Part shown: positions 6,327 to 59,370 of the stretch, piece by piece
Numbering within the stretch: the stretch's first letter is position 1
Layout: the number at the start of each line of letters is the position of its first letter
NCBI RefSeq assembly: GCF_030717995.2
Contig: NZ_CP157743.1
Location: 1,612,001-1,676,000, forward strand
Length of the DNA: 64,000 nt
Direction of reading: 5' to 3'
Source of the DNA: Methylomarinum sp. Ch1-1
Lineage (GTDB): Bacteria; Pseudomonadota; Gammaproteobacteria; Methylococcales; Methylomonadaceae
The notes under the pieces: generated by a model
Told to the model about the DNA's origin: nothing
The model's database searches: none
What the model saw: only the letters and a program-made list of their open reading frames with translations
Made by a program: the position numbers and the translations under genes

Positions 6327-6570
6327 CAGCAATTCCCATGTCATCAGTTTGAGTATTTTTGCAGGGTTTAGGGCATGGGGTGTGTCTGTCGAGGAGCGCC
6401 GTTCACCCAGCACCTAAATTATCCTGGAATGTAAAATATACTCCAGTAGCCATGGAATTTAGGTGCAGGGTAAACCCATCCCTTGGGGGCTTGACGGCAG
6501 CATCCTTGCTGCCGACATCCACGCCAAACACACCCCATGCCCTTTTTGAACGCCAAAGTGGGAATTGCTG
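6327..6570. mobile_element. MITE 'A' copy 1 (244 bp) with nested element B
   Basis: The ends are CAGCAATTCCCA and TGGGAATTGCTG, a perfect 12-bp terminal inverted repeat. The flanks carry a target duplication: GGATAGGCA at 6318-6326 and GGATAGGCG at 6571-6579 (8 of 9 identical, plus one extra matching G outside). The inner GGGCATGGGGTGTGT segments are also inverted, so the element folds back over roughly 75 bp per side. A 67-70 bp palindromic element B (6403-6471) interrupts A after GAGCGCCGT. No coding capacity. Inserted in the nitroreductase gene. Confidence 0.9.
6403..6471. repeat. element 'B' nested in MITE A copy 1
   Basis: TCACCCAGCACCTAAATT at the left and AATTTAGGTGCAGGGT at the right form near-perfect ends around a centre reading ATCCTGGAATG...CCATGG. 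Copies of A without B read straight through GCGCCGT-AAACCC, which defines the insertion point. No target duplication is visible. Confidence 0.8.
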
Positions 6571-6926
6571 GGATAGGCGTCTCGCGTTGCAACAAGCGGC
6601 GTTGGGCCAGGAAGCGATAACGTCGGCTCCAGCCGTTTTTGTGGTGGCGGCAGCCTATCAAAGGACCGCGGTAAAATACGGCAGTCGGGCCGCTCGTTAT
6701 GTCCAGATCGAAAGCGGACATGCTTGCCAGAATTTATTGTTGCAGGCGGCAGCGCTTAACTTGGCCGGCGTGCCTATAGGGGCATTCAATGATGGCCATG
6801 TGGTTGACGTCATTAAATTGCCGAACAATGAGAGGCCGCTGTATCTGGTTCCAGTCGGTTATCCGTCGGAATAAGCCTAGTGCGATAATTGTGCCCTCTA
6901 GGCTTTTGTCATACGGCTATGCTTGC

Positions 6927-7727
6927 CTACAAGCCGTCCTCGTCCCACAACATCGGAAAAACCTTGCGCACCCGGTCTATATGCGCCTGATCGACATTTT
7001 TTCCCCGTAACGTCACCAGCAACGAATAGAGGTCGTGGGTGTCGACCTGTAAGGTGCGTTTCGGTTCCGATTCCAGCGATTTCGATAGCCGCTTGATGGT
7101 CGTTTGCATCGGCAGCGGTTTAGCGACGACTTTAGCAGGTCGCGACAGTTCGTTCTCGATGATCTCTTTTTCGTTACCGGCCGGAGCCTTGAGGCTTTTG
7201 CGCAGTATTTCCTTCGCCCGTGTCCAGGAAAGCTCACCGCTGGCCAGCTTTTCGCGCATCGCTTCCGTGGTCAGCGGGGCGTAGCGAATGATGTCGTCGA
7301 TCCAGCTGACGCTTTTGTCGAAGAACTCGGCAATGCGGTCCTTGGGCCAATTGGCGTTGTTCAGATAGAGGATGGTTTGGAAGTAATCGGTGATCCGGGT
7401 GTCGACGCGGTCGGAATTCAGTTTGAGATTAAGCGCCTTGATCTCGTCGGTATCGCCGGTCACGATCCTGACGTCGACCCGGTCGAAATAGCCGGGGTTG
7501 GAGCCACGGATGCCCTGAATCGCCTCCATGCGGTGGAAGCCGCCGACCAGATAGTATTCTTTGCCGTTGCGTTCCCATACCACCAGCGGTTCCAACAGGC
7601 CGTTGGTGACGATGTCTTTTTCGAGATGCGCGACCTTGGCCTGGTCCAGGTTGCGGTGATTGGTCAGCGAATGGTGAAACTCGATTTGATCGATGGGCAA
7701 ATATTCGTAGCGTTTGGTGGCCAGCAT
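6927..7727 (-). CDS. ParB N-terminal (sulfiredoxin-like) domain protein
   Basis: A 266-aa protein. Residues about 7-100 match the ParB/Srx N-terminal domain: YLPIDQIEFHHSLTNHRNLD, NGLLEPLVVWERNGKEYYLVGGFHRMEAI, the last containing the GxHRxxA-like nucleotide-contact motif. Residues about 120-185 resemble the helix-turn-helix segment (WPKDRIAEFFDKSVSWIDDIIRYAPL). There is no parA partner, and the C-terminal dimerisation region is not typical of chromosomal ParB, so it is more likely a stand-alone ParB-like DNA-binding or regulatory protein than a partition protein. It converges with the nitroreductase gene and is divergent from rtcA. Confidence 0.65.
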   Translation of the reverse strand: MLATKRYEYLPIDQIEFHHSLTNHRNLDQAKVAHLEKDIVTNGLLEPLVVWERNGKEYYLVGGFHRMEAIQGIRGSNPGYFDRVDVRIVTGDTDEIKALNLKLNSDRVDTRITDYFQTILYLNNANWPKDRIAEFFDKSVSWIDDIIRYAPLTTEAMREKLASGELSWTRAKEILRKSLKAPAGNEKEIIENELSRPAKVVAKPLPMQTTIKRLSKSLESEPKRTLQVDTHDLYSLLVTLRGKNVDQAHIDRVRKVFPMLWDEDGL

Positions 7728-7888
7728 GGTTTGTTCTCTTGACGGGGAATGGGCTCTATATTAGAAATAGCAGCGACAAGCATGAATTCTAACGTTAGGC
7801 ATTAGTTATGACAACGCTTTTTGTTACATAACGGTTTACACGTTGACGAAAGACGAAAAATTTCTTTGCTTCAATAAGAAGGTGTGGG

Positions 7889-8914
7889 GTGGGATTTCTG
7901 GAGATAGACGGTTCTCAGGGCGAAGGCGGCGGGCAGGTGCTGAGGACGGCTTTGTCGCTGTCGGCCTGCAGCGGACAAGCGGTGCATATCCGGGCTATAC
8001 GCAGCGGTCGGAAAAAGCCGGGATTGATGAAACAGCATTTGGCCTGCGTCAACGCTGCGGCGGAAATCTGTAATGCCGAGGTCAAAGGCGCGTCCCTTGG
8101 GTCGAAAGACATCGAATTCGTTCCAGGCGTTATCAAGGCCGGCGACTACCGCTTTGCAGTCGGCAGCGCCGGCAGCAGTACGTTGATCTTTCAGACCGTG
8201 TTGCCGCTGTTGATGCTGGCCGGCAAGCCTTCACATCTGCTGTTGGAAGGCGGCACTCATAATCCGATGGCGCCGACTTTCGATTTCATTCACGAGGCTT
8301 TTTTGCCGGTTCTGAGTCGTATCGGCGTGCACTGCCAAGCACGGCTCGAGCGTTACGGCTTTTATCCGGTCGGCGGCGGGAAATGGCGCGTGGCGATCGA
8401 AGCAAAAGAGCCATTCAGGCGCATCGAATTGACGCAACGCGGCGAGCCGCTTAAAGCTGAAGCGGTTTGCATCGAGGCCGGGTTGCCGGAGCATGTCACG
8501 CAACGGGAAATGCAACGATTGCAGGACAAGCTGGACTGGCCTGCCGAGCAAATCAGAAGCCTGCATGTCAAGGCGCTGGGCGCCGGCAACGCGGTTTCGT
8601 TGCGGATCTATTATGGGCATGTCTGCGAAGTGATCGATAGCATCGGCGTCATCGGTATCCGAGCGGAAAAAGTGGCGAGCATGGCCGTCGAACAGCTGCG
8701 ATGCTATCAATGGGCCGGCGCGCCGGTCGGCGGGCATCTGGCCGATCAGTTGTTGTTGCCGCTGGTTCTGGCGGCCGGCGGATCATTCGTTACCGGTCCG
8801 CTCAGTGAACATGTCCGCACCAATATCGCGGTCATCAAGCAATTTCTCGATGTCGACATTCAGTGTGAGGAAATCGTGCCGAAAAGACAGTGGCGGATTT
8901 CGGTGAACAAATGA
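7889..8914 (+). CDS. rtcA: RNA 3'-terminal phosphate cyclase
   Basis: A 341-aa enzyme of the RtcA family. It converts RNA 3'-phosphate to 2',3'-cyclic phosphate using ATP through a covalent enzyme-AMP intermediate. It contains the family motifs LEIDGSQGEGGGQVLRTALSLS at the N-terminus, GSAGSSTLIFQTVLPLL, EGGTHNPMAPTFDF and, near the C-terminus, GPLSEHVRTNIAVI carrying the nucleotidyl-accepting His. The length is normal. The chosen start is GTG at 7889, which places AAGAAGG (7876-7882) six bases upstream and puts the conserved FLEIDG at the very N-terminus. No rtcB or rtcR is adjacent, so this is an isolated copy. Confidence 0.92.
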   Translation: MGFLEIDGSQGEGGGQVLRTALSLSACSGQAVHIRAIRSGRKKPGLMKQHLACVNAAAEICNAEVKGASLGSKDIEFVPGVIKAGDYRFAVGSAGSSTLIFQTVLPLLMLAGKPSHLLLEGGTHNPMAPTFDFIHEAFLPVLSRIGVHCQARLERYGFYPVGGGKWRVAIEAKEPFRRIELTQRGEPLKAEAVCIEAGLPEHVTQREMQRLQDKLDWPAEQIRSLHVKALGAGNAVSLRIYYGHVCEVIDSIGVIGIRAEKVASMAVEQLRCYQWAGAPVGGHLADQLLLPLVLAAGGSFVTGPLSEHVRTNIAVIKQFLDVDIQCEEIVPKRQWRISVNK

Positions 8915-9110
8915 AGAAGGCTATGAGTAGGTTATCAGAGGAGAAAAGGAGCATGCGATAGGCTACCGCTTTCCATGGCCGGCGCCAATATCGGCGGGGC
9001 TGGCGCGCGTAGAACCTAACTTAAAGTCAATAAATGGCGGCAAACCAGGGAGGCTTTTAAACGCGGCTACCGTAAGGCGGCGTAAGGTGTGATCGATTAG
9101 AAAGTCAAGG

Positions 9111-11411: not shown

Positions 11412-11542
11412 AGATGCTCAGCCATCCCGAAGCTGTTTGTGCTGATGCTTTAACGCGCTAGATCACCGGGATGGTGGAGTGTATGAGAATTCACTCTCTC
11501 TAATAATGAGTCTGACGGTTGATAAATGTTCAAAATGATGGG

Positions 11543-17376: not shown

Positions 17377-17445
17377 GGCTAGCTCCTCAATGGCTAATAG
17401 TTATTTGGCGTAATGACCGAATGGATCTTTGTTTTCCCAAAATAT

Positions 17446-17808: not shown

Positions 17809-18331
17809 TTTCTACCTCTTCATTTTTTATAATTGTTGGTGGTGCATTAAGGAATATGCACAAAATAACTTCCCGAAACAGTAGGCTTTGTGGAGGTTCG
17901 GTAACTCGCTTGCCAGGACGCCGTTCACCCAGCACCTAAATAAACGAAGATGATTTATCGCAGCCATTAGCCTATGGAATTTAGGTGCTGGGTGAATACA
18001 TCCGTGGCAGCTAACAGCTCCTGCTTACCGCTGCACTTACACGTCCTTGTGCGGCGGCCGCTTCCGATTTCCTATCTCACGCGGCACTTGCACATCCTTG
18101 TGCGGCGTAGGCTTGACGGCGGCTATCCCTGCCGCCGACACCTGTCAATCGAGCCACCGATTCCTCTTCCGGCATTTGGAGAAGTTATTTCATACTCGTT
18201 CCTAAGTGGAGGGTGATGTGTCTAGTTAAAGGCCTTTGGCATTTTGATGCGATGCCTGTAACGGAACATTAGCCTTCAAGCAAACTATTGCCGACATCAC
18301 CGCATTATTTATTAGCCGCCGCGCGTACGGC
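17809..18331. other. intergenic region with element B and mosaic repeats
   Basis: Besides element B (17924-17996), this stretch contains two copies of a GCACTT-CAC-TCCTTGTGCGGCG word (about 18032-18056 and 18082-18108). It also has a GTAGGCTTGACGGCGGC segment shared with 59858-59880. The flanks of B (GACGCCG on the left, TGAATAC on the right) match the interior of repeat C. No reading frame was found. Confidence 0.5.
17924..17996. repeat. element 'B', subtype 1
   Basis: TTCACCCAGCACCTAAAT and ATTTAGGTGCTGGGTGAA are perfect inverted ends around a centre that includes GATGATTTATCGCAGCC. The same subtype occurs in inverse orientation at 46847-46913 with an essentially identical centre. The uninterrupted site (GACGCCG-TGAATAC) is seen at about 36148, so this copy is an insertion into a repeat-C fragment. 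Confidence 0.8.
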
Positions 18332-22000: not shown

Positions 22001-23673
22001 GTAAGTATTCACACACCCTAGCTGAAAATACAAAATAATTGACAAACCGACACAAGAACATTGTACAAATCCATTAAGAAGCCTTAGTATTTATCCCATG
22101 CAACTCAGTAACCAGGACCTAAGCCAAATCGATGAAGACGAGCTTCTCAATTTACCGGAAGAGGAATTACGTTACCTATCGATTAAGTTACTTAACGACC
22201 TAAAAGAAGCGCGTGAGCGCTTAAGCCAAAATTCGCGCAACAGCTCTCGTCCACCTAGCAGCGAAGCGCCTTGGGATAAAGCAGCTACAGATAATACAAA
22301 CGATCAAGAACAAACGGAGATCGATAAGTCTGCTGAAACGGAAGACACCGTCACCCCCCCGTCGCCTTCTAAAAAAGATCAGCAACAGTCCGCTGATCCT
22401 AACAATGAACATCAAGAACCCCGCAAACCCGGCAAACAACCAGGCGCACAAGGCTTTGGCCGGACACAAAAGCTAGCCATTACCCACTATCAAGATCATT
22501 ACCCTGAAATATGTGCCTGCTGCCATCAAACATTAGAGCCGCGTCATGCTATCGCCTATGCCGCGTATGAAACAATCAATGTCGAATGGGGCGATGTTGA
22601 GCATCCAGGCATTCTAGTCACCCATACCAAGCACACTCTCTATGAAGTAGTGTGCGCCAATGGACATATCACGCGCAAAGAAGTCAGTCGTAGCAGTCAT
22701 GCTCAATTGCCGGGTATTAGCCGAACTGAATGGCGTTTAGTGGGGCCTGGACTGGCAGCAATGATTGTTTGTCTTGCCTACCGTATGCGCCTATCGCGTG
22801 AGCGTATTCAGGAATTTTTATATGACTGGTTAGGTATTAAATTAAGTGTTGGCACCATCAATAATACCCTGCATGAAAGTGGCGCAGCGGCTATGCCGCT
22901 TGAAGATGAGTTTGCACAAGAAATCATTAACAGCGAATTGCTGCATGTAGACGAAACCTCCTGGATGGAGCACACGACTTTTCTTTGGTTATGGGTGTTC
23001 AGTACGAATCGCGTCACAGCCTATTGGATTGCTACGCGTAGCGCTGAATTATTGGAAAATCTTTTAGGCGACGACTTTAATGGTTGGTTAATGAGCGATG
23101 GCTACACGGTTTATCGCAAATATCTGAGTCGGTTACGTTGCTGGGCTCATCTTCTGCGTAAAGCGAAAGGGCTCAATGAAAGCTTAAACAGAGACGCCCA
23201 GCTTTTTGGTCAACAAACGCACGATTTACTGGCTGTGTTGATAGGTGCGGTACGCAAAGCGCGAATAACACCACCTGATACGCCACTTTCTGAAACTTAT
23301 CGCCTGCAATTACTGCTCTATCAGCAGATGTGTATACAAATGAAAACCCATGAACATAAGAAAACAGCAGCATTAGCCACGGAAATGCTAAATGACTGGA
23401 CAGCTATTTTTCAAGTTCTGGATCAACCGCATCAGCCCTTAACGAATAATGAAGCGGAGCGAGCGTTGCGCCACTGGGTTATTTTACGCGGCATTTGCTA
23501 TGGCACGCGCTCGGAAAATGGGACGCGTGTGTTCGCTATTTTAATCAGCGTCATTGAAACCTGCCGCAAAAGAAATCAGTCACCGTGGATTTATTTGGCA
23601 CAAGTGATCGCAAGTCAGCGGTCAGGCTTGCCGGTACCGGCCTTGCCAATTGTTAGGGTGTCTGAATAATTAC
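22001..23673 (+). mobile_element. complete IS66-family insertion sequence, single-transposase type
   Basis: The left end GTAAGTATTCACACACCCTA (22001-22020) and the complement of the right end (23654-23673) match at 18 of 20 positions. A perfect 8-bp target duplication, GTTATAGA, flanks it (21993-22000 and 23674-23681), as expected for IS66. The element is 1673 bp and contains one transposase gene; the usual accessory genes tnpA and tnpB are absent, as in the ISBst12-type subgroup. The intact ends, open reading frame and perfect duplication suggest a recent insertion. Confidence 0.92.
22098..23669 (+). CDS. tnpC: IS66-family transposase
   Basis: A 523-aa protein. It has an N-terminal leucine-rich/coiled-coil segment (LPEEELRYLSIKLLNDLKEARERLSQNSRNSSRPPSS), a low-complexity linker ending PGKQPGAQGFGR, a zinc-finger region (CACCHQTLEPRH), and a catalytic domain with DETSWMEHTTFLWLWVF and LMSDGYTVY acidic signatures. 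LRCWAHLLRKAKG and NEAERALRHWVILRGICYGTRSENGTRVFAIL follow, typical of IS66 TnpC. No frameshift or stop. The stop codon lies within the right inverted repeat. The start is ATG 22098. Confidence 0.93.
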   Translation: MQLSNQDLSQIDEDELLNLPEEELRYLSIKLLNDLKEARERLSQNSRNSSRPPSSEAPWDKAATDNTNDQEQTEIDKSAETEDTVTPPSPSKKDQQQSADPNNEHQEPRKPGKQPGAQGFGRTQKLAITHYQDHYPEICACCHQTLEPRHAIAYAAYETINVEWGDVEHPGILVTHTKHTLYEVVCANGHITRKEVSRSSHAQLPGISRTEWRLVGPGLAAMIVCLAYRMRLSRERIQEFLYDWLGIKLSVGTINNTLHESGAAAMPLEDEFAQEIINSELLHVDETSWMEHTTFLWLWVFSTNRVTAYWIATRSAELLENLLGDDFNGWLMSDGYTVYRKYLSRLRCWAHLLRKAKGLNESLNRDAQLFGQQTHDLLAVLIGAVRKARITPPDTPLSETYRLQLLLYQQMCIQMKTHEHKKTAALATEMLNDWTAIFQVLDQPHQPLTNNEAERALRHWVILRGICYGTRSENGTRVFAILISVIETCRKRNQSPWIYLAQVIASQRSGLPVPALPIVRVSE

Positions 23674-23717: not shown

Positions 23718-23957
23718 CAGTAATGTCATCAGTTTGAGTATTTTTGCGGTGTTTAGGGCATGGGGAGTGTCTGTCGAGGAGCGCCGTTCACCCAGCACCT
23801 AAATTATCCTGGAATGTAAATTATAGTCCAGTAACCATGGAATTTAGGTGCTGGGTAAACCCATCCCTGGGGGCTTGACGGCAGCATCCTTGCTGCCGAC
23901 ATCCTCGCCAAACACACCCCATGCCCTTTTTGAACGCCAAACTGATGGGAATCGCTA
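23718..23957. mobile_element. MITE 'A' copy 2 (240 bp) with nested B
   Basis: The ends are diverged (CAGTAATG... and ...GGGAATCGCTA), but a perfect 9-bp duplication GCATTAAAA flanks the element at 23709-23717 and 23958-23966. The interior is the standard A sequence, with B inserted after GAGCGCCGT (about 23787-23856). The right duplication contains the stop codon of the autotransporter gene, so insertion occurred just beyond that gene. Confidence 0.85.
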
Positions 23958-26202: not shown

Positions 26203-26368
26203 CAGCAACTCCCAGTTTGAACATTTTTGCTGTGTTTAGGGCATGGGGTGTGTCTGTCGAGGAGCGCCGTAAACCCATCCCTAGGGGCTTGACGGCCGCA
26301 TCCTTGCTGCCGACATCCTCGCCAAACACACCCCATGCCCTTTTTGAACGCCAAAGTGGGAATTGCTG
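26203..26368. mobile_element. MITE 'A' copy 3 (166 bp), no nested B
   Basis: The ends are CAGCAACTCCCA and TGGGAATTGCTG. A perfect 9-bp target duplication GCGGAACAT flanks it at 26194-26202 and 26369-26377. The interior reads GCGCCGTAAACCC without interruption and so represents the empty site for element B. A central GGC-GCATCCTTGCTGCCGAC hairpin is present. Confidence 0.9.
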
Positions 26369-26417: not shown

Positions 26418-26865
26418 ATGCAGGGCTACCTCATTAAATGAATGAGTGGCAAAACAGAAAATTAACAACAAATACGCCTAAAGTAAGTTAAACGTTTAGG
26501 GCGGGTTAAATAACCCGCCCCGCGTGCAGGTTTTTGGCGGCTTGCTTCGCGAAGCCGCCCTACGATGCGGTAGGGTGTGCTGACGATAGGAAGCGCACCG
26601 TTTTTGATGCGCTTCACGCTGTTCAGCACATCCGAAGGCAAGACGGTGCTTTGCGTAGGAGCGCCGCCCTTGGCGCGAAAAGCAAGTAGTCCGCATGTCG
26701 CTATGCGAAATGCAGGTCAACGTGGTCCTGAACGATTCAACCGTGACTAGAGTAAGTTATACGTTTGGGGCGGGTAAATAACCCGCCCCGCCTAGAGGGA
26801 TGACGCGATATTAACCCATGTGTTGGTTCAGGTATTTTTTAATGAGGGAGCCCTCGGTCTATATG
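26418..26865. repeat. repeat 'D' copy 1, long mosaic
   Basis: It starts with CAGGGCTACCTCATTAAATG. It contains two GGGCGGGT-TAAATAACCCGCCC hairpins, a GCTTGCTTCGCGAAGC palindrome, a GTAGGGTGTGCTGACGATAG segment and TTTGATGCGCTTC. The same modules recur at 31005-31145, 38757-39300 and, inverted, at 59399-59870. No stable coding capacity. Confidence 0.75.
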
Positions 26866-30750: not shown

Positions 30751-31162
30751 CTATCTCCCCCTTAATCCTGATATTTCGTGAAGGAAATGGAGTTTCTGGA
30801 AAATCGGGCGAAGACGGTTGGACAAACATCACGAATGCCATAGCAAGCTATGGCTTGAGCGATTTTGTTCAAGATTCGAAGGCCGATTGTTCAGAAAACC
30901 ATTCAGGTTCAAACTGTACCAGAAAAATATCGACCCTCTTAATCTTAATGCTTATTTCAAAATGGCTATTAACTTACCTCAGGTTGTTTCCTGTCAGGTA
31001 GGATATGCTGAACTGCGTGAAGCGCATCAAAAACCGGTGCGCTTCCTATCGTCAGCACACCCTACCCACATCGGTGAGATGGATCACGCGCAGCGGATCG
31101 TAGGGCGGCTTCGCGAAGCAAGCCGCCAAACCCCTTGGAAAGGAGAGGGGTCAATATCGTCA
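30751..31162. other. intergenic region with a hairpin and repeat D fragment
   Basis: GCCATAGCAAGCTATGGC at about 30837-30854 is a perfect 8-bp hairpin. A repeat D fragment occupies about 31005-31145. The rest shows no coding or regulatory signal. Confidence 0.45.
31005..31145. repeat. repeat 'D' fragment
   Basis: It contains GATATGCTGAACTGCGTGAAG, AGCGCATCAAAAACCGGTGC, CGTCAGCACACCCTACCCA and GGCTTCGCGAAGCAAGCC modules in the same orientation as 59700-59790, inverse to 38860-38950. Confidence 0.7.
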
Positions 31163-35705: not shown

Positions 35706-35845
35706 TACTCAGTCATGTTATATATCACGGAAACTCGGCAGGCGTCAGCAATTCCCAATTTGCGAACAGAAAAGGGGACAGAGAAAAGGGGACAGGCTAC
35801 TTTTACTCGGACAGGCTACTTTTACTCGGATACTCAGCAGGCGTC

Positions 35846-35998
35846 GGCAATTCCCAGTTTGAGCATTTTTGCTGTGTTTAGGGCACAGGGTGTGTCTGTC
35901 GAGGAGCGCCGTAGACCCATCCTTGGGGGCTTGACGGCAGCATCCTTGCTGCCGACATCCTCGCCAAACACACCCCATGCCCTTTTTGAGCTCCAAAC
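35846..35998. mobile_element. MITE 'A' copy 4, right end missing
   Basis: It begins CGGCAATTCCCAGTTTGAGC and matches A through GCGCCGTAGACCC and CCCCATGCCCTTTTTGAG. The last ~20 bp, including the terminal repeat, are replaced by AGAAAAGGGGACAG. No target duplication is detectable. Confidence 0.75.
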
Positions 35999-36099
35999 AG
36001 AGAAAAGGGGACAGGCTACTTTTCTCAGTCATGTCATATATGACGGGTACTCGAAGGCGCCGGCAATTCCTAGTTTGAACATTTTTGCTGTGTTTACCA

Positions 36100-36236
36100 G
36101 AGTTCGGGTTAAGAAGCGAGCCGGTATCAGGTAGCGCTTCCAGAAGACGCCGTGAATACGTCCATGTAGGCTTGAGCGCCGCCTCCATGCCGCGCACACT
36201 TCTTCCAGAGCGACCTGATACCGTCTTAACCCTTTG
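36100..36236. repeat. repeat 'C' copy 1, fold-back element
   Basis: The left arm GGGTTAAGAAGCGAGCCGG then TATCAGGTAGCGCTTCCAGA pairs imperfectly with the right arm TTCCAGAGCGACCTGATACC followed by GTCTTAACCC. The centre reads GACGCCGTGAATACGTCCAT...CGCCGCCTCCATGCCGCGC and represents the empty site for element B. A second copy with B inside lies at 46760-46972. Confidence 0.7.
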
Positions 36237-36487
36237 GGAGGAAAAGGGGACAAGGAAAAGGGGATAGGCTACTTTTACTCAGGTACTTTTACTCGGATAC
36301 TCGGCAGGCGCCGGCAATTCTCAGTTTGAGCATTTTTGCTGCATTTACCTGAGTTAGGGTTAAGAAGTCAGCCGGTATCAGGTAGCGTTTCCAGAAGACG
36401 CCGTTCACCCACCTACATTCACAATTGCCGACAGCATAAGATTGACTATGTACTAGCCTGCATCATCTGCGTTTGATGGGGTAGGCA

Positions 36488-38656: not shown

Positions 38657-39609
38657 CTGTTTCCCCTGGCGTTATGCCTTAGTTGAACTATCAAAATTCA
38701 ATAACAGAGAGTTTACTATAAAAATAGTAACAATAGTTTATCAAACTACTGGGTCAGCAGGGCTACCTCATTAAATGAATGAGTGGCAAAACAGAAAATT
38801 AACAACAAATACGCCAGGCAGGATGATATGGACTCCTCTCCTTTCCGCTGCGCGTGATCCACCTCACGGATGTGGGTAGGGTGTGCTGACGATAGGAAGC
38901 GCACCGGTTTTTGATGCGCTTCGCGCAGTTCAGCGCATCCGAAGGCAAGGCTGCATTGGCATCGTAACCGTAGGGTGGATTCGCCGCCAGGCAATCCGCC
39001 TGGATACGCACAACGGCTAATTTTGCCTCCGGTGCAGGTTTTGGTGGCTTGCTTCGCGAAGCCACCCTACGCGAAGCCGCCCTACGATGCGGTAGGGTGT
39101 GCTGACGATAGGAAGCGCACCGGTTTTTGATGCGCTTCGCGCAGTTCAGCGCATCCGAAGGCAAGACGGTGCTTTGCGTAGGAGCGCCGCAAGTAGTCGC
39201 ATGCCGCTATGCGGAATGCAGGTCAACGAGGTCCTGAACGATTCCGACCGTGACTAGAGTAAGTTAAACGTTCGGGGCGGGTTAAATAACCCACCCCGCC
39301 CAGAAAATCCGTTATCCCCAAAGATTCCTTGAAATCGGCAAATTGATAGAGATAAAAGCGCGCGGATACCTTCATCAAGAGGCCGAATATATGGCGGCAA
39401 TCTCGATCTCTGTTGGAAACATCATTTTTGAACAATCTTGGCTTGCAATTGGGGAGGAGTCCAAATATGGAAATTGCTGTTATCGAGCTGAAAATTCTTG
39501 CCGTTTAAATACGAATTAATGTGCTAATCGCTGGCTATTAACGTCAATTTATGTAATATTTCACAGATTTTTTCAGTAAGAAACACTTACCACATTCAGG
39601 AATAGTTTA
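38657..39609. other. 953-bp intergenic region dominated by repeat D
   Basis: Repeat D fills about 38757-39300. The remainder upstream of trpS (39300-39609) is AT-rich, with no structured leader that I recognise; no T-box or Trp-codon-rich leader peptide was seen. Confidence 0.5.
38757..39300. repeat. repeat 'D' copy 2, internally duplicated
   Basis: It starts with CAGGGCTACCTCATTAAATG as at 26418. It contains the GTAGGGTGTGCTGACGATAG...GCATCCGAAGGCAAG module twice (about 38876-38950 and 39092-39165), then ends in GTAAGTTAAACGTTCGGGGC and a GGGCGGGTTAAATAACCCACCC hairpin. Short frames across it are repeat translations. Confidence 0.75.
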
Positions 39610-50934: not shown

Positions 50935-50940
50935 GTGATT

Positions 50941-50971: not shown

Positions 50972-51012
50972 ACAGGCATGATGCTCGCTCGGGAGTTTGT
51001 GGGGTGTAAGGC

Positions 51013-51207: not shown

Positions 51208-51420
51208 GACTAAATCCTCCTTATTGATTGCTGATGAATAAAAGAATAATGATTTTGCGCAAGCATACTGCGAACTAATCGTGAAAACGTCATTAATGGC
51301 TCTGTTTAACCGGGTAAATAAGTTGATTTGTGATCCATTCGGCTTTTATAAAGCATTAATATGTCAGTGGTATGACAACGGCTAAAAAAACAATTGAATC
51401 CAAACACCATCATAAGCGGG

Positions 51421-51530
51421 CAGCAATTCCCACTTTGGCGTTCAAAAAGGGCATGGGGGTGAACGGCGCTCCTCGACAGACACACCCCATGCCCTAAACC
51501 CCGCAAAAATACTCAAACTGGGAATTGCTG
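51421..51530. mobile_element. MITE 'A' copy 5 (110 bp), internally deleted
   Basis: The ends CAGCAATTCCCA and TGGGAATTGCTG are perfect. A perfect 9-bp duplication ATAAGCGGG flanks it at 51412-51420 and 51531-51539. It is inverted relative to other copies and lacks the central CCCATCC...GCAGC part, joining GGGCATGGGG directly to TGAACGGCGCTCCTC. The TGAA at the joint may be a trace of element B's end. Confidence 0.9.
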
Positions 51531-51581
51531 ATAAGCGGGGGTTAAGGCCGGCTTATGACGGTTTATCGATAACCTGGTTAA

Positions 51582-52364
51582 TCAGCCCGCTGCTAAACCG
51601 GCAATGTTATAGCCGCAATCGACATAGGTGATTTCGCCGGTCACGCCCGAGGCTAAGTCGGAACATAGGAAGGCGGCGACATTGCCGACTTCCTCGATCG
51701 TGACATTACGTTTTAACGGCGAGGTGTCGGAGGCTTTGCTCAGCATCGATTTAAAATTGTTAATGCCGGAAGCCGCCAGCGTTCTGATCGGTCCGGCCGA
51801 GACCGCATTGACACGCGTGCCTTCCGTTCCCAGCGCTGCGGCCATGTAGCGGACATTGGCTTCCAGGCTGGCTTTGGCGACGCCCATGACATTGTAGTTG
51901 GGGATCGCCCTTTCCGCGCCCAGATAGCTGAGCGTCAACAATGAGCCGTTGCGGCCTTTCATCATTTCGCGGCCGGCCTTGGCCAGCGCGGTGAAACTGT
52001 AAGAGCTGATGTCGTGGGCAGTGGCGAAATTTTCCCGCGTCGTGGCGTCAACGTAATCGCCTTCCAGCGCATCACGCGGCGCGAAAGCTACGGAATGAAC
52101 GATGCAGTCCAGGCCGTCCCAGTGTTTGCCCAATTCGGTGAAGACATTGGCAATTTGCTCATCACTGCTGACGTCCAATTCGACGGTGATATTGGAGCCG
52201 CATTCCGCGGCCATGCTTTCGACCCGGCTTTGCAGCTTGTCATTTTGGAAGGTAAAGGCCAGTTCAGCGCCTTCACGATGCATGGCCTGAGCAATCCCCC
52301 AAGCGATGGAACGGTTGCTGGCCAGGCCAACAATCAAGACACGTTTGCCCTGCATAAAACCCAT
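51582..52364 (-). CDS. fabI: enoyl-[acyl-carrier-protein] reductase (NADH)
   Basis: A 260-aa short-chain-dehydrogenase-fold enzyme performing the last reduction in each round of type II fatty-acid elongation. It contains the modified nucleotide motif [40 protein letters not shown] and [24 protein letters not shown]. The catalytic Tyr-x6-Lys lies in [20 protein letters not shown], followed by [20 protein letters not shown] 52364 is chosen because GGAG lies seven bases upstream; a longer frame to 52376 has no such site. It is the likely target class of triclosan. Divergent from the peptide transporter operon. Confidence 0.95.
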
Positions 52365-52409
52365 TAGTATCTCCAATTGTATTTGTTGTTAGAATAGGCG
52401 CCAGTATCT

Positions 52410-54578
52410 ATGACCCTAATAATGATGTCCAGTATTTTGTCAGCAAAAATCAGTCGATGCCTTGTTTTCAGCGTGTTCGCCGCGTTGCTTGTAAGTTGCA
52501 ATGTTTCGCAGTTGAACAATCCCTATCAGGAAAGCGAAGACGGGCGGAACATCCTTTATTCGTCTTTTTCCGAGAGGCCGAAGCATCTCGATCCGGCCAA
52601 GGCCTACAGCGCCAATGAATACGCGTTTATCGCCCAGATTTACGAGCCGCCTTATCAATATCATTATCTGAAAAGGCCTTATCAGTTGGTGCCGTTGACG
52701 GCAGCGGACATGCCGCAAATCCGCTATTACGACCAGGGCGGCAAACAGCTGAAAGGTCGATTCGCCGATGACGATGTGGCCTACAGCGATTACCTGATTG
52801 AAATCAAACCCGGCATACGTTTTCAACCACATCCGCTGTTTAGCCGCGATGAAGGCGGTCGTTTTCTATATCATCATTTGAATGAACAGCAATTGTCCGG
52901 CATCGACGATTTGAGCGATTTTGAGATTCGCCAAAGCCGGGAGTTGACGGCGGAAGATTATGTTTATCAGATCAAACGCTTGGCGCATCCTAAGGTGCAG
53001 TCGCCGATTGCCGAAATCATGAAACACTATATCGTAGGCTTCGACGAATTTTCCCGCCAAGTCGCCGAGGTCCCCAAGACCGAGTTGAAAAACTATGCGA
53101 TCAGCGGTGTTCAAGCCGTTGGCCGTTATCAATATCGGGTCAGGATCAAAGGCAAATATCCTCAGTTTCGCTTCTGGCTGGCCATGCCTTTTTTTGCGCC
53201 GATGCCCTGGGAGGCAGACGCCTTTTACCAACAAGCCGGCTTGCAAGAAAAAAATATCACGCTGGATTGGTATCCGGTCGGCACCGGGCCTTATTTTTTG
53301 GAAGAGAATAATCCTAACCGGCGCATGGTATTGGCGAAAAATCCGTTGTTTCATGACGAGTTTTATCCCCATGAAGGAGAAGAAGGGGACAAGGAAAATG
53401 AGCTGTTAGTCGACGCCGGAAAAAAACTGCCGTTCATCGAGCGCGTGGTTTATATGCTGGAAAAGGAAACGATTCCCTATTGGAATAAGTTTCTGCAAGG
53501 CTATTACGACGCCTCGGGTATCGCGTCGGACAGTTTCGATCAGGCCGTGCAATTCACCGGTGAAGGCGATGCGCAATTGACGCCGATGATGGAAGAAAAA
53601 GGCATACAATTGCAAACCTCGGTCACCACCTCGATTTATTATTTGGGCTTCAATATGCTCGATACGGTGATCGGCGGCGAATCGGAACGGGCGCGCAAGC
53701 TGCGACGAGCTATTTCGATCGCGATCGATTATGAAGAATACATCGCTATTTTCATGAATGGTCGTGGCGTCGCCGCTCAGGGTCTGCTGCCACCGGGAAT
53801 TTATGGTTTTGAGGAAGGGAAGGCCGGCATGAACCCCTATGTTTACGACTGGGCAGGTGGCCAGGTGCAGCGCAAGAGCATTGAAGAAGCGCGGAAGCTG
53901 ATGACGGAGGCCGGCTATCCGCAGGGGATCGATCCGAAATCCGGTGAGGCCTTGACGTTGTATTTCGATATCACCTCGGTCAGCGTAGACGATCGACCGC
54001 GGATGAATTGGTTCAGGAAGCAGCTGGAGAAACTCGGCATCAAACTGATCATCCGGGCGACCGATTACAACCGTTTTCAACAAAAAATGCGTAGCGGCAG
54101 CGGCCAGCTTTTTTTGTGGGGGTGGAATGCCGATTATCCCGATCCGGAAAACTTCTTCTTTCTGCTGTATGGCCCGAACGGCAAGGTCAAGCATGGCGGG
54201 GAGAACGCGGCCAATTACCATAATCGAAAATTCGACAGTTTGTTCGAAAAAATGCGCAACATGGATGATGGCCCGGTACGCTATCGGATTATTCAGCAGA
54301 TGCAGGCTATTCTGCGCCGTGACGCCCCCTGGGTTTTCGGCTTGCATCCGAAGGATTTCAGCCTCTATCACAGCTGGTATAAAAACATTAAACCTAATTT
54401 GATGGCCAATAATAGTCTGAAATACACCCGCATAGACGCCAGCGAAAGACTGAAAAAACGCCGGCAATGGAATCGAGCGCAATTTTGGCCATTGATCGTA
54501 TTGGCTGCGCTGCTTTTAGTATTGGTCGTACCGGCGGTCCGAGCTTACCGCCGTCGCTTAAGGGAGAGTCTGCAATGA
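52410..54578 (+). CDS. peptide ABC transporter substrate-binding lipoprotein with C-terminal membrane helix
   Basis: A 722-aa protein of solute-binding family 5 (OppA/DppA/YejA-like). The N-terminus has a lipobox, FAALLVSC (Cys30). The body contains family features SFSERPKHLDPAKAYSANEYAFIAQIYEPP, GTGPYFLEENNPNRRMVLAKNPLFHDEFYP, RKLRRAISIAIDYEEYIAIF and LFLWGWNADYPDPENFFFLLYG. It ends with a hydrophobic helix (WPLIVLAALLLVLVVPAVRAYRRR, about residues 690-713), unusual for this family, so it may be anchored at both ends. The stop overlaps the next start (ATGA). Oligopeptides are the likely ligand class. Confidence 0.85.
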   Translation: MTLIMMSSILSAKISRCLVFSVFAALLVSCNVSQLNNPYQESEDGRNILYSSFSERPKHLDPAKAYSANEYAFIAQIYEPPYQYHYLKRPYQLVPLTAADMPQIRYYDQGGKQLKGRFADDDVAYSDYLIEIKPGIRFQPHPLFSRDEGGRFLYHHLNEQQLSGIDDLSDFEIRQSRELTAEDYVYQIKRLAHPKVQSPIAEIMKHYIVGFDEFSRQVAEVPKTELKNYAISGVQAVGRYQYRVRIKGKYPQFRFWLAMPFFAPMPWEADAFYQQAGLQEKNITLDWYPVGTGPYFLEENNPNRRMVLAKNPLFHDEFYPHEGEEGDKENELLVDAGKKLPFIERVVYMLEKETIPYWNKFLQGYYDASGIASDSFDQAVQFTGEGDAQLTPMMEEKGIQLQTSVTTSIYYLGFNMLDTVIGGESERARKLRRAISIAIDYEEYIAIFMNGRGVAAQGLLPPGIYGFEEGKAGMNPYVYDWAGGQVQRKSIEEARKLMTEAGYPQGIDPKSGEALTLYFDITSVSVDDRPRMNWFRKQLEKLGIKLIIRATDYNRFQQKMRSGSGQLFLWGWNADYPDPENFFFLLYGPNGKVKHGGENAANYHNRKFDSLFEKMRNMDDGPVRYRIIQQMQAILRRDAPWVFGLHPKDFSLYHSWYKNIKPNLMANNSLKYTRIDASERLKKRRQWNRAQFWPLIVLAALLLVLVVPAVRAYRRRLRESLQ

Positions 54579-55552
54579 TTCAATACATCATCCGTCGTAG
54601 TCTTTATGCATTGCCGCTACTGTTAGGGGTCAATATCCTGACCTTCGTATTGTTCTTTGTCGTCAACAGTCCCGACGATATGGCGCGCATGCAGTTGGGG
54701 CAGAAACACGTGACCGAACAGGCGATAGTCAACTGGAAGCGTCAGCATGGCTACGATAAACCGTTGTTATGGAATGCCGAGCAGAGCGGCGTCAAAAAGA
54801 TCAGCGAAACCATTTTTTATCGCAAATCGATCGGTTTGTTTTTGTTCGATTTCGGTACTTCCGACAGCGGTAGAAATATCGGCGCCGACATTAAACAGCG
54901 AATGTGGCCTAGCCTTGCCCTGGCATTGCCATCGCTGCTGGTGGGACTTTTGGTCAATATCACGGTGGCCTTGATGATGGTGCTGTTCCGCAATACGTAT
55001 CTGGAATTCGGCAGCATCGTGTTATGCGTGATCCTGATGTCCATTTCCTCGTTGTTTTATATTATCGGCGGCCAGTTTCTGATCGGCAAACTGCTGAAGT
55101 TGGTGCCGATTTCCGGTTACGACACAGGCTTAGAGGCGATCAAGTTTCTGGTGCTGCCGGTATTGATCAGCGTGGTCGCCGGCGTCGGCTCCGGCGCGCG
55201 TTGGTATCGTACGCTGTTTCTGGAGGAAGTGGAGAAGGATTATGTGCGTACGGCACGGGCTAAGGGCTTGAGCGAACCCCAGGTGCTGTTTAAGCATGTG
55301 TTGAAAAACGCGATGATTCCGATCCTGACCGGCGTGGTCGTCATCTTGCCGTTGTTGTTCATGGGCAGCTTGATCATGGAATCGTTTTTCAGCATTCCTG
55401 GGCTGGGCAGCTACACGATCGATGCGATCAACCGACAGGATTTCGCCATCGTCCGTTCGATGGTGTTTCTCGGTTCCGCCCTTTATATATTCGGTTTGTT
55501 GTTGACCGATATCTCTTATACCCTTGTCGACCCGAGAGTCAGGTTGTCGTGA
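54575..55552 (+). CDS. ABC transporter permease (YejB/OppB type)
   Basis: A 325-aa inner-membrane protein starting at ATG 54575, overlapping the lipoprotein stop by four bases. It has about six membrane helices and the binding-protein-dependent permease loop EEVEKDYVRTARAKGLSEPQVLFKHVLKNAMIPILT (EAA motif contacting the ATPase). It opens with MIQYIIRRSLYALPLLLGVNILTF, typical of OppB/DppB/YejB. It forms the translocation channel with the next permease. The stop overlaps the next start region (GTGATG). Confidence 0.9.
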   Translation: MIQYIIRRSLYALPLLLGVNILTFVLFFVVNSPDDMARMQLGQKHVTEQAIVNWKRQHGYDKPLLWNAEQSGVKKISETIFYRKSIGLFLFDFGTSDSGRNIGADIKQRMWPSLALALPSLLVGLLVNITVALMMVLFRNTYLEFGSIVLCVILMSISSLFYIIGGQFLIGKLLKLVPISGYDTGLEAIKFLVLPVLISVVAGVGSGARWYRTLFLEEVEKDYVRTARAKGLSEPQVLFKHVLKNAMIPILTGVVVILPLLFMGSLIMESFFSIPGLGSYTIDAINRQDFAIVRSMVFLGSALYIFGLLLTDISYTLVDPRVRLS

Positions 55553-56883
55553 TGATAGTATTATGGACCGATGCATTGTTGTTCATCTTGGTGCTGATGT
55601 TGCTAATTTTGGGTGTCTATATGAGCCGCAAGGCTCATATGCGCAGGCCGCTGCGGAAAATAGGCCGCAGTAAAACCGGCATGGCTGCGCTGGTAGTGCT
55701 GCTGTTTTTTCTGCTGATCGGGCTGCTCGACTCGCTGCATTTTAAGGATAACGGCGAAGTCATCAGTGTGCTCGATTACCTGGCCAGGCCGTTGCAAGAA
55801 AACAGCGAGAAGACCTATTCGGCGCCTTTTGCGGCTTATTTGTACAGCAAGGAAACGATCACTCAGGCCGATGGATCGACGCGATGGGGCTATCCGCGTT
55901 TGCGTTATGGCGGCGCCCACCTGCAGGACCCTGAACGAGAGAAAAGCGGCGATATCGCGGCGAAAGGCTTGGTCGGTTTCGCTAAAGGCGCAGGTCTGAT
56001 GTTGTTGTTTATGCTGTTGTTGTGGAGCTTTTTTAAAGACCGGCACCGGCATCTGTTGGCCCATGGTTCTACCCGCGCCGTGTTGACGACTTTGTTCCTC
56101 TTGGTCAGCGGTTTTTATACGCTGGTTTATTTATCGTCCTATTATCATGTGTTAGGCACCGACAAGGTCGGTGAAGATGTGTTTTATCAGGCCATTAAAA
56201 GCGTACGCACCGGCTTGGTGATAGGCTCGCTGACGACGATGATCATGTTGCCGTTGGCGATTTTGTTCGGCATCATGGCGGGGTTTTTTCGCGGTTGGGT
56301 CGATGATGTCATTCAATATGTCTATACGACGCTGAACTCGATTCCCAGCGTGCTGTTGATCGCCGCGTCGATACTGATGGTGCAGGTCTACATGGCGAAC
56401 CATCCGGAGGAATTCAACAGTTTGCTGGTCAGGGCCGATATGCGGTTGCTGTTTCTATGTCTGATCCTAGGCGTCACCAGTTGGACCGGCCTGTGCCGCA
56501 TGTTGAGGGCGGAAACTCTGAAATTGCGTGAGATGGAATATGTTCTGGCCGCGCAGGCCTTGGGCGTGACTCGATCGATGATTTTATTCCGTCATATCCT
56601 GCCCAATGTCATGCATATCGTGTTGATTTCGGTGGTGCTGGATTTCAGCTCGTTGGTGCTGGCGGAGGCGGTGTTGTCCTATATCAATATCGGCGTCGAT
56701 CCGACGACCTATAGCTGGGGCAACATGATTAACGGCGCCCGGCTGGAAATGGCGCGCGATCCGATCGTCTGGTGGTCGCTGGCGGCGTCGTTCGTGTTCA
56801 TGTTCTCGCTGGTGTTGGCCGCCAACTTGTTCGCCGATTCCGTCAGAAACGCCTTTGATCCCAGGAGGGCCGAACATGGCTGA
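55552..56883 (+). CDS. ABC transporter permease (YejE/OppC type)
   Basis: A 443-aa protein starting at ATG 55552, which overlaps the previous stop as TGATG; GTG 55549 is also possible. After a first helix and a basic stretch (RRPLRKIGRSKTGMAALVVLLFFLLIGLLDSLHF, typical of OppC/YejE), a long periplasmic insertion and two extra helices precede the core (about residues 210-440). The core has the EAA loop ETLKLREMEYVLAAQALGVTRSMILFRHILPNV and GVDPTTYSWGNMINGARLEM. It is about 100 residues longer than ordinary OppC proteins because of the insertion. Stop at 56883. Confidence 0.88.
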   Translation: MIVLWTDALLFILVLMLLILGVYMSRKAHMRRPLRKIGRSKTGMAALVVLLFFLLIGLLDSLHFKDNGEVISVLDYLARPLQENSEKTYSAPFAAYLYSKETITQADGSTRWGYPRLRYGGAHLQDPEREKSGDIAAKGLVGFAKGAGLMLLFMLLLWSFFKDRHRHLLAHGSTRAVLTTLFLLVSGFYTLVYLSSYYHVLGTDKVGEDVFYQAIKSVRTGLVIGSLTTMIMLPLAILFGIMAGFFRGWVDDVIQYVYTTLNSIPSVLLIAASILMVQVYMANHPEEFNSLLVRADMRLLFLCLILGVTSWTGLCRMLRAETLKLREMEYVLAAQALGVTRSMILFRHILPNVMHIVLISVVLDFSSLVLAEAVLSYINIGVDPTTYSWGNMINGARLEMARDPIVWWSLAASFVFMFSLVLAANLFADSVRNAFDPRRAEHG

Positions 56884-58483
56884 GTCGTTATTAAGCGTTA
56901 ACGGCCTGAGCGTTTCGTTCAAAGACGAGACCGTCGTCGATAATATCAGCTTCACGATCAATCGCGGTGAAACCTTCGCGTTGGTCGGCGAATCTGGCTC
57001 CGGCAAATCGATTACCGCCTTGTCGGTGCTGAGACTGCTGCCGAGCGGCGCACGCTTGCAGGCTTCTTCGATCCTGCTGCAGGACGAGAATCTGCTGCGC
57101 ATTCCGGAAATCGATTTCTGCCAGGTGCGCGGCAAACGCATCGGCCTGATTTTTCAAGACCCGATGTCGTCGCTGAATCCGGTGATGACGATAGGCGAAC
57201 AGGTCGCCGAAGTGATGCGGATACATTTTGATGACAACAACAAAGGCATCCGCGGCAAGGTCCTGAAATTGCTGAAGCAGGTCGAAATTCCCGAACCGCA
57301 ACGACGCATCGATGAATATCCGCATCAGTTGTCGGGCGGCCAGCGACAGCGGGTGATGATCGCGATCGCCTTGGCCGGTCAGCCGGATTTGTTGATTGCC
57401 GACGAGCCGACCACGGCGCTGGACGTGACGATACAGGCGCAGATCCTGGAGCTGCTGAAGAACATACAGCGCCAGACCGGCATGGCGCTGTGGTTGATTA
57501 GTCATGATTTGGCATTGGTGTCGAATATGGCCGACCGCATTGCGGTGATGCAGCAGGGACGTATCGTCGAAACGGCGGCGACGTCGGTGTTTTTTAAACA
57601 AGCCCGCCATCCTTATAGCCTGAAGCTGTTGGCGGCCTTGCCGTCGATGGACAGTTGCCTGAATAAAGCTCAGCGCGAACAGCCGGTTTTGCTGGAAGTC
57701 TCCGACTTTAAGGTTTATTATCCGATAAAAAAGGGTATCTTCAAACGAGTGGTCGACCATGTCAAGGCGGTGGACGGCGTCGACTTTCGATTGCAACAGG
57801 GGAAAACGCTGGCGCTGGTGGGGGAATCGGGCTGCGGTAAGACCACATTGGGCAAGGCGCTGTTGAATCTGACCGCATCCAGCGCGGGACGAGTGATTTT
57901 TAACGGTGTCGATATCAGCGCCTTACAGGGCGAGGCGTTGCGCCGTCATCGAGCCGCGATGCAGATCATTTTTCAAGATCCCTTCGCGGCGATGAATCCG
58001 CGCATGCTGGTCGGCGATATTGTCGCCGAAGGCCTCAAGGCGCTGCACCTGAATGTCCGTTCAGCGGATAGACAGGAAAGAGTCGCTAAGCTGCTGGAAC
58101 AGGTCGGTTTGCCGGAGTCTTCGGCATTGCGCTATCCGCATGAATTTTCCGGCGGCCAGCGGCAACGCATTTGTATCGCTAGGGCGTTGGCGGTCGAACC
58201 GCAATTGATTATCTGCGATGAACCGACCAGCGCCTTGGATGTTTCGGTGCAGGCTCAGATCATCGAACTGCTGAAACAACTGCAACGGGAACAGGGCTTG
58301 AGTTATCTGTTCATTACCCATGATCTGGCGGTGGTCGCCGAATTAGCCGATGAAGTCGCGGTGATGTATCAAGGCAAGATAGTCGAGCAGGGGGAGGTAG
58401 AGCAGGTGCTGACTCGCCCGGCCCATGTTTACACGCAACAATTATTGAGCGCGATTCCGCGCCTAATCAGGAGTGAATCATGA
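56876..58483 (+). CDS. peptide ABC transporter ATPase, duplicated (YejF-like)
   Basis: A 535-aa protein starting at ATG 56876 (AGGAGG at about 56862; eight-base overlap with the permease stop). It has two complete ABC modules. The first has VGESGSGKSITALS, LSGGQRQRVMIAIALAGQPDLLIADEPTTALD and LISHDLALV. The second has VGESGCGKTTLGKAL, FSGGQRQRICIARALAVEPQLIICDEPTSALD and FITHDLAVV. This fused double ATPase corresponds to OppD plus OppF and is usual in YejABEF-type transporters. It powers import by the preceding permeases. The last codons overlap the DUF2780 gene start (ATGA). Confidence 0.93.
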   Translation: MAESLLSVNGLSVSFKDETVVDNISFTINRGETFALVGESGSGKSITALSVLRLLPSGARLQASSILLQDENLLRIPEIDFCQVRGKRIGLIFQDPMSSLNPVMTIGEQVAEVMRIHFDDNNKGIRGKVLKLLKQVEIPEPQRRIDEYPHQLSGGQRQRVMIAIALAGQPDLLIADEPTTALDVTIQAQILELLKNIQRQTGMALWLISHDLALVSNMADRIAVMQQGRIVETAATSVFFKQARHPYSLKLLAALPSMDSCLNKAQREQPVLLEVSDFKVYYPIKKGIFKRVVDHVKAVDGVDFRLQQGKTLALVGESGCGKTTLGKALLNLTASSAGRVIFNGVDISALQGEALRRHRAAMQIIFQDPFAAMNPRMLVGDIVAEGLKALHLNVRSADRQERVAKLLEQVGLPESSALRYPHEFSGGQRQRICIARALAVEPQLIICDEPTSALDVSVQAQIIELLKQLQREQGLSYLFITHDLAVVAELADEVAVMYQGKIVEQGEVEQVLTRPAHVYTQQLLSAIPRLIRSES

Positions 58484-59070
58484 AAATCAAGCAGTCGTTA
58501 TTATTTTGTTCTTCTTTGACTCTCGCCTTGGCGATGGTTACACCGGTTCAGGCCGGTTGGTTGGATTTTTTAACCGGCAGCAGCGAAGAAGCGGCGGAAA
58601 AGGTTCAGCAAGGCGCGGAAACGGTTAACAAAGTCAATCAGGCGGTGCAAACCGGCGCGGAGACGGCGCAATCCTTGCCGACAGCTCAACAAGGATTGAC
58701 CGGCGTCCTGATGCAGCAGTTGGGCGTCAGCGAAACTCAGGCCACAGGCGGGGCGGGAGCCTTGTTTCAGGTCGCCAAACAACGCATGACCGAGAACGCC
58801 TTCAATCAGCTGAGCCAAGCGGTGCCAGGCATGGATGGGTTGTTGGCGGCGGCGCCGAAACAATCCGGTACGGTCGGCGGTTTGGCCGAAGGTTTATTGG
58901 GAAAAGACAGCGCGGTCAGTCAAACCGCTTCGCTGATTTCGGCTTTTCAGCAATTGGATATGTCGCAAGGCATGGTCAGCCAGTTCACGCCTATCGTCGT
59001 CGATTACGTCAAGCAACAAGGCGGTCCGCAATTGGCAAATCTGTTGCAGCTGGCCTTAACTGGCTCTTGA
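58480..59070 (+). CDS. secreted DUF2780-type protein
   Basis: A 196-aa protein. An N-terminal signal peptide (LLFCSSLTLALAMVTPVQA, cleavage after about residue 25) predicts export to the periplasm. The mature part starts GWLDFLTGSSEEAAEKVQQG. It then contains the DUF2780 pattern LTGVLMQQLGVSETQATGGAGALFQVAKQRM...FNQLSQAVPGMDGLLAAAPK and the closing VDYVKQQGGPQLANLLQLAL. Function unknown. It is translationally coupled to the ABC ATPase (four-base overlap), so it is the fifth gene of the operon. The conserved residues LGVSExQAxGGxGALF support family assignment. Confidence 0.78.
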   Translation: MKIKQSLLFCSSLTLALAMVTPVQAGWLDFLTGSSEEAAEKVQQGAETVNKVNQAVQTGAETAQSLPTAQQGLTGVLMQQLGVSETQATGGAGALFQVAKQRMTENAFNQLSQAVPGMDGLLAAAPKQSGTVGGLAEGLLGKDSAVSQTASLISAFQQLDMSQGMVSQFTPIVVDYVKQQGGPQLANLLQLALTGS

Positions 59071-59196
59071 GCAGGGAATGTAAGGTCGGATGTAACTATT
59101 CAGTATAAAAATGCTTTTTCTATTCGTTACTTGCTTCAAAAGACGCCGTTCACCTAGCACTAAATTATCCTGGAATGTACAATGTAGCCCAAAAGC

Positions 59197-59370
59197 CAGC
59201 AATTCCCATGTCATCAGTTTGAGTATTTTTGCGGTGTTTAGGGCATGGGGTGTGTCTGTCGAGGAGCGCCGTAAACCCATCCCTGGGGGCTTGACGGCAG
59301 CATCCTTGCTGCCGACATCCTCGCCAAACACACCCCATGCCCTTTTTGAACGCCAAAGTGGGAATTGCTG
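59197..59370. mobile_element. MITE 'A' copy 6 (174 bp) inserted in element B
   Basis: The ends CAGCAATTCCCA and TGGGAATTGCTG are perfect. A perfect 9-bp duplication CCCAAAAGC flanks it at 59188-59196 and 59371-59379. Joining the flanks restores element B subtype 2 (CACCTAGCACTAAATTATCC...GCCATGGGGTTTAGGTGCAGGGT, written in parts), as at 6403-6471. This copy of A has the uninterrupted GCGCCGTAAACCC. Confidence 0.92.

Follow-up and report, generated by a model that had tools for sequence, protein, structure and literature searches.

The stretch of DNA examined here, a 64,000-nt window of the Methylomarinum sp. Ch1-1 genome (C2:1612001-1676000 within a three-contig genome of 4.77 Mb), holds several short palindromic repeats with inverted ends and flanking duplications, which raise the questions of what inserted them and what they carry. 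A sequence-only reading had described them as a family of miniature inverted-repeat transposable elements (MITEs), here called MITE A. This held for the family, but it had overlooked a two-hairpin core that is common to a second MITE family and to repeats in other genera. We put at about 85% the probability that MITE A is a non-autonomous transposon, inserted in trans by the transposase of a 1410-bp insertion sequence (IS) through shared 12-bp ends. The copies in the window are as follows.

6327-6570, minus strand: MITE A, 244 bp; 9-bp duplication with one mismatch (GGATAGGCA/GGATAGGCG); third hairpin module present; core at 6466-6517, minus strand.
23718-23957, minus strand: MITE A, 240 bp; perfect duplication GCATTAAAA; third module; degenerate ends; core at 23849-23901.
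26203-26368, minus strand: MITE A, 166 bp; perfect duplication GCGGAACAT; core at 26265-26315.
35846-35998, minus strand: MITE A lacking its right end; core at 35907-35957.
51421-51530, plus strand: MITE A, 110 bp, without core; perfect duplication ATAAGCGGG.
59197-59370, minus strand: MITE A, 174 bp; perfect duplication CCCAAAAGC; core at 59267-59317; the target is a copy of the third hairpin module.

Re-checking the window reproduced exactly the five copies first reported, with their coordinates and 9-bp duplications (four perfect, one with a single mismatch), and the sixth copy, said to have lost an end, indeed lacks the right one. The inverted ends ascribed to all five are shared in general; those of the 23718-23957 copy are degenerate (CAGTAATGTCAT... 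/ TAGCGATTCCCA...), its duplication being perfect nonetheless. Ends of the MITE A type with up to two mismatches occurred 24 times in the window (7.8 expected). Fold-back arms, also part of the sequence-only reading, were evident relative to shuffles in the 110-bp copy (z -7.5) and in 143 bases of the 26203 copy (z -6.1), while 104 bases of the 59197 copy, a piece cut ahead of the second arm, folded no better than shuffles (z -0.05).

Genome-wide, the exact 12-bp end CAGCAATTCCCA was present 243 times (126 + 117) and the pattern read backwards was absent (0 + 0). The 24-base right arm had 109 matches at three or fewer mismatches, and its control had none. A search for paired ends with a test of their flanks had been proposed as the check on the family; with ends 60-320 bp apart it gave 95 pairings, taken from sampled stretches rather than the whole genome and some of them nested or overlapping. 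Exact 9-bp duplications flanked 62 of the 95, compared with 0.6% for shuffled flanks, and a further three pairings had exact 10-bp and two exact 8-bp duplications. The 62 nine-bp duplications are all distinct and tend to have G/C at both ends and A/T in the middle. The MITE family and its 9-bp target duplication, as read from the sequence alone, are supported. Lengths of 166 bp (n = 27) and 235 bp (n = 16) were the most frequent, and the size classes reflect the absence or presence of the third hairpin module, which none of the 32 exact-duplication copies of up to 180 bp and all 30 longer ones contain. A loose pattern detected the core in 55 of these 62 copies; 51421-51530 and one copy elsewhere (L190) are core-less, and both have perfect duplications. 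With terminal inverted repeats, a target duplication of fixed length and ends in common with an autonomous element of the genome, MITE A is a real MITE family, comprising more than 100 short non-coding hairpins in this genome.

That autonomous element came to light as an end pair 1410 bp apart (C2:522176-523585, outside the window) enclosing a transposase gene. The mobilising enzyme had been predicted to lie outside the window and a full-length IS with the same ends had been suggested as the thing to look for; in agreement, the window had no match to PF01609 and the 1410-bp IS was found elsewhere, with ends identical to those of MITE A over 12 bp (CAGCAATTCCCA). The genome has seven copies: six are 99.4-100% identical, one of these being split by an insert, and the seventh, of 1408 bp, was identified from its ends together with fragments of the protein. 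Duplications of 9 or 10 bp flank all seven, although the length is unsure at L062, where the duplication lies inside a tandem repeat. The 439-aa transposase frame is uninterrupted in two of the seven. Comparison of the IS with 80 loci of the genome by blastn matched IS copies only, and one IS copy adjoins a right-end remnant of MITE A. As the two have only their ends in common, an origin of MITE A by internal deletion of this IS was rejected.

The transposase passed PF01609 narrowly (25.2 bits, cut-off 23). An alignment of 13 loci, one without an open reading frame (ORF), gave 12 proteins including the query, among which 16 D/E positions are invariant; D123, D213 and E336 are among them and, judged by this conservation, probably form the D/D/E triad. 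The protein passed no NCBIfam transposase family model. Assignments to IS4 (NF033591, 19.3 bits, cut-off 152), to IS1380 (NF033539, 17.7 bits, cut-off 180) and to ISAs1 were rejected, the last because PF13808, which we take to be an ISAs1 trait, scored 22.2 bits (cut-off 32.3) and no NCBIfam ISAs1 model matched at E 1. In a set of 15 plasmid records, the ISNCY label appeared on one protein (H6, 42.8% identical), and the rest were labelled 'transposase', hypothetical or unannotated; a plasmid search using MITE A itself gave no match.

Since MITE A is palindromic and reaches a high copy number, it could be compared with repetitive extragenic palindromes and bacterial interspersed mosaic elements (REP/BIME), moved by a REP-associated tyrosine transposase (RAYT) rather than by a DDE enzyme; REP dimers within palindromes are described in PMC3733652. 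The exact 9-bp duplications of MITE A and the 12-bp inverted ends that it shares with a DDE IS make such an origin scarcely credible.

Unoccupied targets are also present. A search with joined flanks flagged 15 of the 62 exact-duplication copies; two (L184 and L201) were self-matches and were removed, leaving 13 whose joined flanks match one continuous stretch of the sampled genome sequence. These copies, which include 59197-59370, sit in other repeats that have unoccupied copies in the same genome. The congeneric genome G001 has a block that corresponds to window 51586-59068 (78% in alignment). This syntenic block has no aligned counterpart of 51421-51530 or of 59197-59370, and the four exact MITE A ends of G001 all lie outside it. 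The joined-flank query recovered no orthologous empty junction in G001, where intergenic DNA is too diverged for one to be read; one G001 repeat match (78%) spans the 59197 junction.

We propose that MITE A is recognised, at the 12-bp ends common to both, by the transposase of the 1410-bp IS, which would act in trans and insert MITE A with duplication of 9 (sometimes 10) bp. The MITE A interior is a two-hairpin core between inverted arms, which IS66-type ends enclose as well (MITE D), and we read this core as passenger DNA carried by at least two transposon systems. The ends, the duplications, the related empty sites, the near-identical IS copies and the two intact transposase genes are present in the genome, and from the match of ends we infer that this very enzyme, rather than a lost relative, moved MITE A. 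The sequence-only reading had specified cut-and-paste transposition. The duplications show staggered insertion and not the mode of excision, and so do not establish cut-and-paste. Because MITE A has a probable transposase and empty sites, a direct test of trans-mobilisation is feasible.

Several observations weigh against this assignment. MITE A and the IS share ends only, which leaves room for a different transposase with the same ends as mobiliser, and 28 of the 95 pairings lack an exact duplication of at least 8 bp. The genome holds a second IS (IS-B, 1433 bp; protein 58% identical; ends CAGCAATTCTCA; 9-bp duplications). No duplication flanks the IS copy of M. lenta (L111) or that of Methylotuvimicrobium buryatense 5G (L112), and the copy of G242 (L213) has one of 9 bp. 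In a survey of 301 genomes of the order, with the IS and MITE/core searches taken as the same draw, the IS protein was matched at 1e-60 in 36, MITE or core DNA at 1e-8 in 22, and both in nine. For 12 of the 22, the matches listed (at most two per genome) cover the interior only. Thirteen of the 22 had no IS match at 1e-60, and five of these 13 (G001, G021, G120, G175 and G254) hold full-length MITE matches, with many MITE candidates in G120, G175 and G254, which weakens a strict one-to-one link between IS and MITE. MITE-rich genomes of this kind, without a strong IS match, fit the alternative that MITE A was moved by another IS of the group, since lost or diverged (IS-B being an example), and that the 1410-bp IS shares only ancestral ends with it. 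IS-B also gives 9-bp duplications and its ends differ by one base. However, MITE A matches the 1410-bp IS exactly over 12 bp and does not match IS-B, and the genome has the 243 exact ends given above; we regard this alternative as distinctly unlikely.

MITE A ends occur in relatives as well. Exact ends numbered 242 in M. buryatense, a family-level relative (order Methylococcales, class Gammaproteobacteria), four in G001 and three in M. lenta, where two of the three bound its IS copy. The scored M. buryatense MITE matches were 85-86% identical to the query, compared with 93-100% for the best 40 of 304 candidates in the Methylomarinum genome, which suggests separate MITE A bursts in the two genomes. 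Two M. buryatense copies of MITE A (L242:11619-11717 and L243:4689-4786) have an extra insert of ∼48 nt in the first core loop.

What MITE A carries is a structured unit. Interior-only matches to MITE A occurred in several other genera, and in an alignment of 26 copies, picked for diversity, 10 of the 16 core pairs had changed on both sides. The covariation score of 0.355 was reached by none of 500 shuffles, and slid versions gave 0.011-0.117. A core model gave 128 matches at 0.001 in 85 sampled sequences, many of them selected for such matches, and 102 of these were distinct. GGA occupies loop 1 in 95 and loop 2 in 96 of the 102, a conservation that is partly by construction because the starting pattern demanded GGA in both loops; GGA is also present in loci found by BLAST only, outside the model (L088, L090, L091 and L270). 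In a phylum survey, 11 of 120 genomes had a core match, eight of them in the same class (own genome included). The three outside the class (G376, G379 and G422, one match each) were treated as chance, as L312 and L313 are not core-like and L311 has GGA in one loop only.

The same core lies inside a second MITE family, MITE D, which has GTAAYTATTCAG ends and 8-bp duplications. The window contains a copy of it and, separately, an element of the IS66 type.

71-227, minus strand: MITE D, 157 bp; ends GTAACTATTCAG / GTAATTATTCAG; 8-bp duplication GGCCTGAC; core at 125-174.
22001-23673, plus strand: IS66-type element, 1673 bp; ends GTAAGTATTCAC / GTAATTATTCAG; 8-bp duplication GTTATAGA; transposase ORF at 22098-23669 (PF03050).

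The MITE D core was absent from the model alignment and scored 39.2 bits (E 6.6e-8). In 464 kb of the genome (20 stretches plus the window) there were nine D-type pairings, seven with an 8-bp duplication. When 122 core loci, many of the A loci among them chosen as MITE matches, were scanned for ends with a duplication of at least 8 bp, 37 were positive and 85 had none, compared with 1 of 362 shuffled. The 37 comprised 29 of A type, six of D type (five in the own genome, one in M. buryatense) and two doubtful cases (L084 and L089). GTAA ends with an 8-bp duplication are IS66 traits. MITE D has both, and an IS66 transposase is encoded in the genome; the element at 22001-23673 is a candidate mobiliser of MITE D. 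IS66-type elements resemble this element and MITE D in their GTAA ends and 8-bp duplication and differ from MITE D in that it retains the ends only. One core is therefore carried by MITEs of two different transposon systems. It may have entered both by insertion into a palindrome or by recombination between elements. In MITE A, in MITE D and in other arm families alike, the third hairpin module takes the same position within the core, which indicates that parts are exchanged between elements.

In most places outside these genomes the core occurs without either set of ends. An A-type end (up to two mismatches) lay within 200 bases of the core at 0 of 19 places in genomes of the class and 2 of 18 in genomes of the order, and a D-type end at 0 of 19 and 1 of 18. 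Complementary flanks (score of at least 24) were found at 28 of 37 core places in other genomes and in 19 of 1089 shuffled pairs. Two of the 37 places had been counted twice, which makes the figure 26 of 35. These places (L086-L091, L097-L098, L268-L276, L304-L311 and L315-L321) exclude the own genome and M. buryatense, where 32 of 55 cores reached the arm score and the control (9.7%) was elevated because arm families are shared; copies with the third module mostly fell below the score, their arms being set apart by that module. The arms pair within a copy, and their sequence varies from genome to genome and among the families of the own genome. An arm-enclosed core without MITE A ends thus occurs in other genera. 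A scan of 559 kb blind to the core, for inverted repeats with 40-80-bp spacers, found 16, six with at least two GGA hairpins and 10 without, so long palindromes that lack the core exist too. Among hairpin loops in the 464 kb, the tetraloop AGGA was the most frequent (15 of 179 at stems of at least 6), MITE copies being included in this count. Two further arm families are seen in the window.

36148-36198, minus strand: core with other arms (GGTATCAGGT...CTGGAAGAAG).
18103-18140, minus strand: first part of the core, which further hairpins interrupt; the arms are of a different family again.

The second of these belongs to a core-bearing palindrome at 17890-18180 that has further hairpins nested within one loop.

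The core could instead be a functional RNA, similar to the TwoAYGGAY motif (RF01731) and bound by CsrA, with the MITEs kept as a supply of binding sites or as a sponge. PMC2864571 lists TwoAYGGAY as a probable RNA from the human gut, gamma-Proteobacteria and Clostridiales, and PMC4333381 gives predicted CsrA binding and a poorly conserved external stem. In keeping with this idea, the genome encodes one CsrA, the core has two covarying hairpins with GGA in most loops (favoured, as said, by pattern and model) and an outer stem, and one locus (L305) was matched by both the core model and RF01731 (44.0 bits, gathering 43). Against it, RF01731 matched four of 16 core-bearing loci, only that one above the threshold (L320, 38.3; L307, 35.2; L318, 31.8), and neither MITE A (window 59150-59420) nor MITE D (window 1-300) was listed for RF01731 at E 10. 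Rfam gave nothing at gathering in the window; MITE A scored 34.7 against DUF3800-IV (cut-off 60.7) and other core places up to 40.8 against Ysr224 (cut-off 70), all below threshold. G-U pairs (27) were no more frequent than A-C mismatches (26), and orientation to tandem genes was unbiased (nine same, 10 opposite; in the sampled stretches, 3 vs 4 for A and 8 vs 6 for other cores), neither count lending support to an RNA function here. The two core-less copies, moreover, have perfect duplications. As the evidence now stands, passenger DNA is the likelier reading, and we consider a functional RNA role rather doubtful.

With no RF01731 listing for MITE A or D, we use the term TwoAYGGAY-like for the core instead of placing it in that family. 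Judged against the published descriptions of RF01731, the likeness lies in two GGA-loop hairpins within a poorly conserved outer stem and in L305; the differences are that MITE A and D fall under the Rfam threshold and that the outer stem here consists of transposon arms. A bolder idea, which we advance tentatively and do not favour, is that the TwoAYGGAY-like motif (predicted to bind CsrA) is mobile cargo enclosed by at least two unrelated families of transposon ends, so that transposition would install CsrA-type sites genome-wide; the Rfam outer stem would then partly be the arms of different MITEs. A literature search found no link between MITEs and TwoAYGGAY or CsrA sites in the accessible text, where PMC4383904 (Rfam 12.0) matches both words. 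A covarying core within MITEs of two transposases offers a concrete account of how structured repeats spread and why an outer stem is not conserved, and gives a route to asking if TwoAYGGAY-like motifs work as RNAs or travel as passenger DNA.

Compared with the bacterial MITEs reviewed in PMC10969869, MITE A is likewise short, non-coding and of high copy number, with inverted ends, a target duplication and a partner IS in the genome; what differs is the interior, which does not derive from the partner IS and recurs in a second MITE family with other ends. The REP dimers in palindromes of the GTAG/CGTC families (PMC3733652) are similar as small hairpin units within larger palindromes, but MITE A and D, unlike them, have DDE-type duplications.

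With respect to genes, an ORF of the nitroreductase family (5980-6417) enters the 6327-6570 copy and is apparently interrupted by it. An ORF spans three of the 62 exact-duplication copies, a count that is weak as a test of gene avoidance because insertion itself breaks an ORF. Both neighbours were resolved for 36 of the 62 (20 tandem, 10 divergent and six convergent; median distances 103.5 and 92.5 bp). Of the cores, 50 of 55 were placed relative to genes, and eight of 20 A cores lie inside ORFs of at least 100 aa, some of which at least run into the MITE.

Other repeats accompany these elements. At 35718-36404 there is a cluster in which partial left ends of MITE A are joined to other arms and to GGGGACAGGCTACTTTT-type repeats, the latter of REP/RAYT-like appearance. 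Composite intergenic repeats (GCAGGGCTACCTCATTAAATG..., GGTAGGGTGTGCTGACG...) occur at 26420-26800, 38757-39300, 31005-31133 and 59682-59782, and copies of the GCAGGGCTACCTCATTAAATG kind elsewhere in the genome serve as MITE A targets. Finally, three 67-nt direct repeats spaced 50 bp apart at 59876-60042 overlap an ORF at 59574-60110.

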